Below, in pieces: positions 56,386-58,431 of a DNA stretch of 64,000 nucleotides. The stretch is from an uncultured Roseburia sp. (GTDB taxonomy: Bacteria > Bacillota > Clostridia > Lachnospirales > Lachnospiraceae). The notes under the pieces are model-generated. The model was not told the DNA's origin. It worked only from the letters and a program-made list of their open reading frames with translations, and ran no database searches. Positions within the stretch are counted from its first letter, which is position 1, and each line of letters starts with the position of its first letter. A program made the position numbers and the translations under genes. The stretch covers positions 62,001 through 126,000 of the forward strand of contig CANRYS010000006.1 of NCBI GenBank assembly GCA_947644305.1. The letters run 5' to 3'.

Positions 56386-56817
56386 TTATTCGTCTTCCAG
56401 CATGGCGATCCGCCTCGCATGGCGCTCTGCCCCGGAAAATTCTGTATTTAAGAAAGTGTCCACGATCTTTACCGCGAGCCCTGGACCGACAACCCTTGCC
56501 CCCATGGCCACGATATTGGCATCGTTATGTAGTCTGGTCGCTTCCGCGCTAAAACAATCATGACACTGCGCGGCGCGGATTCCCTTCACCTTATTGGCGG
56601 CGATGGAGATGCCAATGCCAGTGCCGCAGATCAGGATACCCTTTTCACATTCTCCGTCTGCCACCGCGTGGGCCACTTTTTTCCCATACACCGGATAGTC
56701 CACCGGATCTTCGCTGAAAGAGCCATAATCTTTATATTCCAGCCCCTTTTCATCCAGATATTTAATAATTTCCTGTTTCAAATTGTAACCTGCCTGGTCA
56801 CTTCCCAATGCTATCAT
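56386..56817 (-). CDS. rpiB: Ribose 5-phosphate isomerase B
   Basis: IALGSDQAGYNLKQEI, CGTGIGISIAANKVKGIRAAQC, RLHNDANIVAMGARVVG. Confidence 0.95.
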   Translation of the reverse strand: MIALGSDQAGYNLKQEIIKYLDEKGLEYKDYGSFSEDPVDYPVYGKKVAHAVADGECEKGILICGTGIGISIAANKVKGIRAAQCHDCFSAEATRLHNDANIVAMGARVVGPGLAVKIVDTFLNTEFSGAERHARRIAMLEDE

Positions 56818-56849: not shown

Positions 56850-57296
56850 CTAGTTCCACTCCAGTTTTTTCTTGATCTTATAAAGCAAGTCCTTTATCTC
56901 TACATAACTTGCCTCATACACCGTTTCATCTCCCCCGTGGGGCGGCAGTACCTCTCCCTCTTCGCCGGCAAACTCATGGAGAGTATACACGTTGTCAGAT
57001 ATGCCAAAATCCTCAACCACCTTCACCTTTTCCACAAAATTCATGGTGATGATCAAGGTATCCTCCGTCACTTCTTCCGGCCGAAACTCCGTCGAAACCT
57101 GCTCCTCACAGGGAACCGCATGATTCATGAGAATATCCGTCACCTTCATGTTGCGCGGTTCCGGAAACAAAACCACAAGCCCGCGGGACAGGATCTCCTT
57201 ATCCTTGTCCATCAAAATACTTTTGAACATCCACTCCGCCATCGGACTTAATGTCACATTTTCCTTGCTTACAAAAATTACTTTCTTATAATCCAT
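56850..57296 (-). CDS. Low-molecular-weight phosphatase (YwlE-like) homologue with degenerate active site
   Basis: KKVIFVSKENVTLSPMAEWMF aligns to the LMW-PTP P-loop but lacks Cys and Arg; located between rpiB and sua5. Confidence 0.85.
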   Translation of the reverse strand: MDYKKVIFVSKENVTLSPMAEWMFKSILMDKDKEILSRGLVVLFPEPRNMKVTDILMNHAVPCEEQVSTEFRPEEVTEDTLIITMNFVEKVKVVEDFGISDNVYTLHEFAGEEGEVLPPHGGDETVYEASYVEIKDLLYKIKKKLEWN

Positions 57297-58377
57297 CCCC
57301 GACTCCATCTCCATTATCTACCTCGATTACCTGCTGCCCGGCGGCTTTCAACAGGCGGTTCATCACCGCTTCTTCCTTGGCAGAGTCATAAAAACTTTCA
57401 GATAAGATCATTTTTACGTGAAGTTCATCAAATCTGCGGAGCACTCCATAAAGATAGCGTCCCACGTCATCTCTCCGCCTGGAACCCGCTGTCACTACCT
57501 GTCCCACAGAGTACTGTGCCGCGGTCTCTTCGGTGGCAAGTATGCCGATCTCTTCCGGGCGAATTCCCTTCTCGTGAATCAGTCTCCTGGCCGCTTCATT
57601 GATTCCCGCAGTGACCGCCTCCTGCCTGCCACAAAATACTTTCATCTGTGCTTTCGGCGCATAATGCCTGTATTTCATACCGGGAGCTTTCGGCGCCACA
57701 TCTCCCTCCACACTGAGAAGAGCGGGGTCCATGGCTGCTTCTCCCACTACCTCCTCTACCATCTGTCTGGTAATATATCCGGGACGAAGGATCACCGGAA
57801 GTTCACCGGTCAGATCCACGATGGTGGACTCAAATCCGATCCCCACCTCACCGCCATCGATGATCATGTCAATCTTTCCCTCCAGATCTTCTCTCACATG
57901 CTCCGCCCTGGTAGGACTTGGCCGTCCCGACGTGTTGGCGCTGGGAGCTGCCACAGGTACGGATACCGCCTCCAGAAACTCCAGTGCTCCGGGGTGTTCT
58001 GGCATACGAACGGCCACCGTCTCCAAACCGCCAGTGATCTCATAGGGAACACAATCTGCCTTTTCAAATATCATCGTCAGCGGTCCCGGCCAGAAAGCCT
58101 CTGCCAGTCTCACTGCTGTATCTGGAATCCGTCTGGTGATCTCTTTTAATTGGGAGAACCGTCTGATGTGGAGGATCAGAGGATTATCCGACGGACGCCC
58201 TTTCGCCGTGTAGATCCTGCGGGCGGCTTCTTTTTGAAGCCCGTTCCCCCCCAAACCATACACGGTCTCCGTGGGAAATGCCACCAGGCCCCCCTGATCT
58301 ATAATCCTTTTTGCCTCTGCCAGTTCAGAGGGCTCATACCCTCTGTCTGGACTCCAGATAATGTATTTTGTATCCAT
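57286..58377 (-). CDS. L-threonylcarbamoyladenylate synthase (Sua5/YrdC/YwlC family)
   Basis: GGLVAFPTETVYGLGGNG, KGRPSDNPLILHI, PSANTSGRPSPTRAEHV, C-terminal Sua5 domain. Confidence 0.95.
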   Translation of the reverse strand: MDTKYIIWSPDRGYEPSELAEAKRIIDQGGLVAFPTETVYGLGGNGLQKEAARRIYTAKGRPSDNPLILHIRRFSQLKEITRRIPDTAVRLAEAFWPGPLTMIFEKADCVPYEITGGLETVAVRMPEHPGALEFLEAVSVPVAAPSANTSGRPSPTRAEHVREDLEGKIDMIIDGGEVGIGFESTIVDLTGELPVILRPGYITRQMVEEVVGEAAMDPALLSVEGDVAPKAPGMKYRHYAPKAQMKVFCGRQEAVTAGINEAARRLIHEKGIRPEEIGILATEETAAQYSVGQVVTAGSRRRDDVGRYLYGVLRRFDELHVKMILSESFYDSAKEEAVMNRLLKAAGQQVIEVDNGDGVGDGL

Positions 58378-58431
58378 AGCCTTTTGTCTGCCTTCATCCA
58401 TAAAATCCATATAGAATATATTACCACAAGA

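Follow-up and report, generated by a model that had tools for sequence, protein, structure and literature searches.

A predicted YwlE-derived pseudophosphatase beside sua5 in Roseburia, and the repeated loss of phosphatase residues across Lachnospiraceae

The gene at 56850-57296 on the minus strand of the analysed window, a 64,000-nucleotide stretch from an uncultured Roseburia sp., encodes a protein of 148 residues which has the YwlE/LMW-PTP fold and lies at the position of ywlE, yet lacks the nucleophile Cys, the P-loop Arg and the general-acid Asp of catalytic members. Its product is predicted to be an inactive, YwlE-derived pseudophosphatase, which would be expected to have no phosphatase activity in the test tube. 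The explanation that we favour, with a probability of about 0.55, is that this protein has outlived arginine phosphorylation and is kept for another role, non-catalytic and linked to the neighbouring Sua5.

Both the sequence and the predicted fold place the protein, whose translation begins MDYKKVIFVSKENVTLSPMAEW, in the LMW-PTP superfamily. Its match to Pfam LMWPc reaches 46.8 bits (cut-off 23.2), and no NCBIfam model exceeds its own cut-off; the AlphaFold model (pLDDT 95, pTM 0.90) agrees with solved YwlE-type structures at TM 0.84-0.88, the best PDB relatives being the YwlE structures 4kk4, 1zgg and 4pic together with the LMW-PTP 4egs of T. tengcongensis. At about 24-30% identity to YwlE, the alignment to these four structures confirms the three substitutions that the original prediction had read from the sequence: Ser10 (codon AGC, 57267-57269, minus strand) stands for the catalytic Cys, Leu16 (TTA, 57249-57251, minus strand) for the phosphate-binding Arg of the P-loop, and Pro118 (CCG, 56943-56945, minus strand) for the general-acid Asp of DP(Y/F)G, a site which is still recognisable as PPHG. 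A displaced active site was ruled out, since the CX5R motif occurs nowhere in the protein, whose sole Cys is residue 63. Judged by fold, sequence and position, the protein is thus a YwlE homologue which should not carry the name phosphatase.

The gene order at the locus is sua5, the pseudophosphatase gene, rpiB, proC and the atp operon, so that the ywlE-like setting between sua5 and rpiB proposed earlier holds, and the sua5-ywlE-rpiB order marks the gene as a positional orthologue of ywlE. The sua5 gene (57286-58410, minus strand), the sole copy in the genome, encodes the L-threonylcarbamoyladenylate synthase (threonylcarbamoyl-AMP synthase, Sua5/TsaC) with intact KxR and SxN motifs, and its end overlaps the start of the pseudophosphatase gene by 11 bases (57286-57296, minus strand); rpiB (56386-56817, minus strand) encodes ribose-5-phosphate isomerase B. 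Elsewhere in the same genome a second LMW-PTP was found (G000:C7:144106-144531), which is of the tyrosine-phosphatase type and fully canonical (CHGNICRSP...DPWYTG), and therefore the genome is predicted to have probably retained general LMW-PTP activity.

The same Ser and Leu are carried by five other species, whose proteins are 97-99% identical and whose dS is about 0.25-0.49, and a sequencing error is thereby ruled out. Among the six near species, Nei-Gojobori estimates for the gene are dN 0.0125, dS 0.413 and dN/dS 0.030, as compared with dN/dS of 0.094 for sua5 and 0.012 for rpiB, which means that the ratio of the pseudophosphatase gene is one third of that of Sua5. Moreover, the gene is present in 26 of 26 near-complete genomes of the genus, and no internal stop is seen in its 36 genus copies; the frame is as intact as first described. 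A pseudogene was ruled out as well, because the replaced residues are common to the relatives and dN/dS is as low as 0.03. These observations show purifying selection, and support the earlier view that the gene is maintained as a pseudophosphatase and is not decaying. Within the genus the P-loop Arg is gone from all 36 copies and the Cys is retained in 22 of them, and the former P-loop has acquired new conserved residues, namely KEN at 94-97% and a Trp at 97%, and therefore this loop is not simply relaxed.

Beyond the genus, a profile search of 200 Lachnospiraceae genomes, sampled at about one per genus, detected the sua5-linked gene in 96, and its result was sharply bimodal (the 96 at E < 1e-34, the remainder at best about 1e-16). 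In the 94 copies that were scored, both Cys and Arg are kept in 20, Arg only in 47, which is the commonest state, Cys only in 14 and neither in 13; Arg is thus kept in 67 copies, and the full canonical CxGNTCR in 8. The first residue of the P-loop is Ser in 36 copies, Cys in 34, Asp in 12, Gly in 6, Ala in 5 and Glu in 1. When the P-loop and DP columns are left out of the alignment, the resulting tree, which is poorly resolved and gives rough counts, requires at least 18 changes of the Cys and at least 15 of the Arg. As read from these residues, catalytic loss is family-wide, repeated, and made in different residue combinations. The 44 homologues inspected from other families of the class (the 24 best-scoring and 20 picked lower in the ranking) all carry CxGN(T/I)CR, and Sua5 was detected in the fetched flank of 41 of them. 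In five genera (loci L072, L120, L124, L129 and L130) the former P-loop reads DxDxT, for example FLDADDTAR, which resembles motif I of HAD phosphatases; within an LMW-PTP fold this likeness may be due to chance.

The part of the protein that is best conserved across the family lies outside the P-loop. The segment SRGLVVLFPEPRNMK (residues 37-51; 57144-57188, minus strand) takes the family form SRGLVVLFPEPxNxK, specific to the Lachnospiraceae copies, and has a mean entropy of 0.80 bits (P-loop 1.99, remaining positions 2.29); every row of an 84-row alignment has F44 and P47. In the model the strand spans residues 34-39, so the segment makes up the end of strand beta-2 and the loop that follows, and in LMW-PTPs this loop borders the active site. 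The segment is found in intact and in broken family copies alike, whereas most other Clostridia have a SAG-type sequence in its place; it is therefore probably older than the catalytic losses. Of all parts of the protein, we regard it as the likeliest to carry the function that has been retained.

Could the protein still be an enzyme whose chemistry has changed, such as one using a Ser or Asp nucleophile on a different substrate? The conservation of loop positions within the genus, the Asp at the nucleophile position of 12 family copies (5 of them DxDxT) and the place of the best-conserved segment beside the old active site would all suit such an enzyme. However, the nucleophile, the phosphate-binding Arg and the general acid are all three missing from the window copy, and the loop varies too much among family members to serve one new chemistry; besides, in PDB 4kk4, a structure of the C7S mutant of YwlE, the active-site serine is phosphorylated, and this looks like a trapped intermediate and not like turnover. 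We consider an altered enzyme quite unlikely. Slightly less so, though still improbable, is a relic in slow decay, useless after the loss of the arginine kinase McsB, whose frame survives through translational coupling to the essential sua5 and rpiB. The many combinations in which catalytic residues were lost, the absence of the gene from about half of the sampled genera and the family-wide variability of the P-loop are all as expected of a relic, but not so a dN/dS below that of Sua5, the stop-free copies of the genus, the intact predicted fold, the new residues of the former P-loop, the highly conserved segment of 15 residues, and the fusion to Sua5 described below.

The fate of McsB may bear on why catalysis was lost. 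By PF00217, McsB was not found in the window's genome, and neither was CtsR, a result to be read beside control genomes of which none matched PF00217 and only L. lactis matched CtsR (the B. subtilis record gave neither match though both were expected, and may lack that operon). A query with the McsB protein likewise found none in 39 genomes of the genus (0/39). As for the sensitivity of the PF00217 search, it matched 202 of 293 genomes in the class sample, mostly of other families, against 42 of the 200 in the family. Within the family, 7 canonical CxGNTCR copies come from McsB-positive genomes and 1 from a McsB-negative genome, whereas the other copies divide into 9 and 77 (Fisher p = 8e-6, kinship ignored); in 12 McsB-negative genomes Cys and Arg are both present, within a loop that is non-canonical. 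The sole canonical copy in a McsB-negative genome, L119 (G044), has a McsB-positive tree sister, L081, and its state would fit a recent loss of McsB.

The kinase itself appears to have been altered in a similar manner. Of the 42 family McsBs, 31 no longer have the first Glu of the NEED box, and at the Cys position of the CPTN motif most carry Phe or Tyr. We take this Cys and the NEED Glu to be the equivalents of the following catalytic residues. In S. aureus McsB, Cys157 has been described as catalytically essential (PMC12467219), and in arginine kinase Glu225, Glu314 and Cys271 hold the substrate guanidinium (PMC11075012). The homologues without the NEED Glu, most of which also lack the CPTN Cys, are thus apparent pseudo-arginine-kinases. 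Most of the genomes with these altered McsBs (among loci L136-L140 and L211-L247) have no sua5-linked YwlE. Where both genes are present, in 16 genomes, all 7 intact phosphatases pair with a McsB keeping the first NEED Glu, and 6 of the 9 broken ones pair with a McsB lacking it (p = 0.011, kinship ignored); an independent-pairs test of catalytic state against McsB had no power, with 2-3 well-supported pairs.

The same evidence bears on the earlier suggestion of a reader of phosphoarginine or phosphotyrosine, which would bind the phospho-residue without hydrolysis. Such a role is conceivable for the commonest family state, as a copy that has lost the Cys and kept the Arg could still bind phosphate, and the P-loop Thr of the YwlE type (Ile in the PTP type) is retained in 69 of the 94 copies, the window copy having Val at this position. 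In the genus of the window copy, however, the state is the reverse: the phosphate-binding side chain is removed in every copy, and with McsB absent the genus has no known source of protein phosphoarginine. A phosphoarginine reader is therefore unlikely, and for a phosphotyrosine reader no support was found; taken together, readers are a poor explanation, though the least improbable of the alternatives weighed here. Such a reader would resemble STYX. STYX-type pseudophosphatases are likewise phosphatase folds under selection after the loss of catalytic residues, but they belong to the classical PTP/dual-specificity superfamily and keep the P-loop Arg, unlike the window protein with its LMW-PTP fold and a genus that has lost this Arg.

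What the gene has kept in nearly all copies is its link to Sua5. For 91 of the 94 family copies the flank that was fetched contains Sua5 coding sequence, and in 14 of the 94 (11 of the 36 genus copies) the two form one open frame, with at least 8 changes of the fusion state on the poorly resolved tree. In the predicted Sua5-pseudophosphatase fusion both parts are retained, and their best matches are Sua5 and YwlE-type structures; its domain arrangement was discarded as not confident (pTM 0.55) and gives no firm sign of contact between the two. Fusions are also seen in other Clostridia families (L188, L201, L207, L256, L260, L261 and L262), with the same order of Sua5 and then the LMW-PTP domain in a single open frame, but with CxGNTCRSP intact and in genomes with McsB, unlike the window copy, and the sua5-ywlE-rpiB order, too, is seen with fully canonical phosphatases outside the family; hence neither synteny nor fusion is specific to the pseudoenzyme. 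Moreover, the gene occurs in only 96 of the 200 family genomes, and therefore Sua5 does not generally depend on it. A helper of RpiB or of another neighbour, instead of Sua5, would be suggested by rpiB directly following the gene and by the YwlE-type LMW-PTP chain in the PDB that is named RpiB (4egs). Yet RpiB lies in the fetched flank of 54 of the 94 copies against 91 for Sua5, flank lengths varying among loci, and all 25 aligned fusions have Sua5 as the partner, and we find this the least probable of the explanations considered. An independent functional tie of YwlE to t6A comes from B. subtilis, where TsaD, the t6A enzyme component downstream of Sua5, is a target of McsB/YwlE at Arg282 (PMC7546277); a paper on the Sua5/TsaC family leaves a phosphatase domain unmentioned (PMC10321239).

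Thus the retention of the pseudophosphatase is most likely explained by a Sua5-linked role, because the fold is kept, selection is strong, a non-catalytic face is conserved and fusion has recurred. The gene would descend vertically from that of the arginine phosphatase YwlE and still occupy the ancestral site between sua5 and rpiB. Protein-arginine phosphorylation would have been dismantled in most Lachnospiraceae genera, McsB being absent or altered in its active site, so that selection on YwlE catalysis ceased and Cys, Arg and general acid were repeatedly lost. The protein would then have been retained as a bound subunit or an appended domain, the most likely form of such a role, which may stabilise or regulate the synthesis of threonylcarbamoyl-AMP for tRNA t6A through the SRGLVVLFPEPxNxK face, which adjoins what was once the active site. 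Physical contact with Sua5 and an effect on t6A are what we infer from this pattern. A bolder proposal is held tentatively and at odds clearly short of even: on many separate occasions what was once a phosphatase domain would have become part of Sua5, either as a non-catalytic subunit or as its C-terminal domain, and would serve Lachnospiraceae as a dedicated t6A regulator inherited from the arginine-phosphorylation system, while McsB became a pseudokinase or was lost.

In a literature search that had subscription journals outside its reach, no description of a Sua5-linked pseudophosphatase was found. As a caution for annotation, the names 'arginine phosphatase' and 'tyrosine phosphatase' are not transferable to the sua5-linked genes of Lachnospiraceae. 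Pseudoenzymes are usually found singly; here the active sites of a phosphatase and of its kinase appear to be lost in a linked fashion across a large gut-bacterial family, while the phosphatase protein is retained, either next to Sua5 or fused with it. The many parallel losses offer a natural experiment on why dead enzymes persist, and the protein that remains may be a regulator of a universal tRNA modification.
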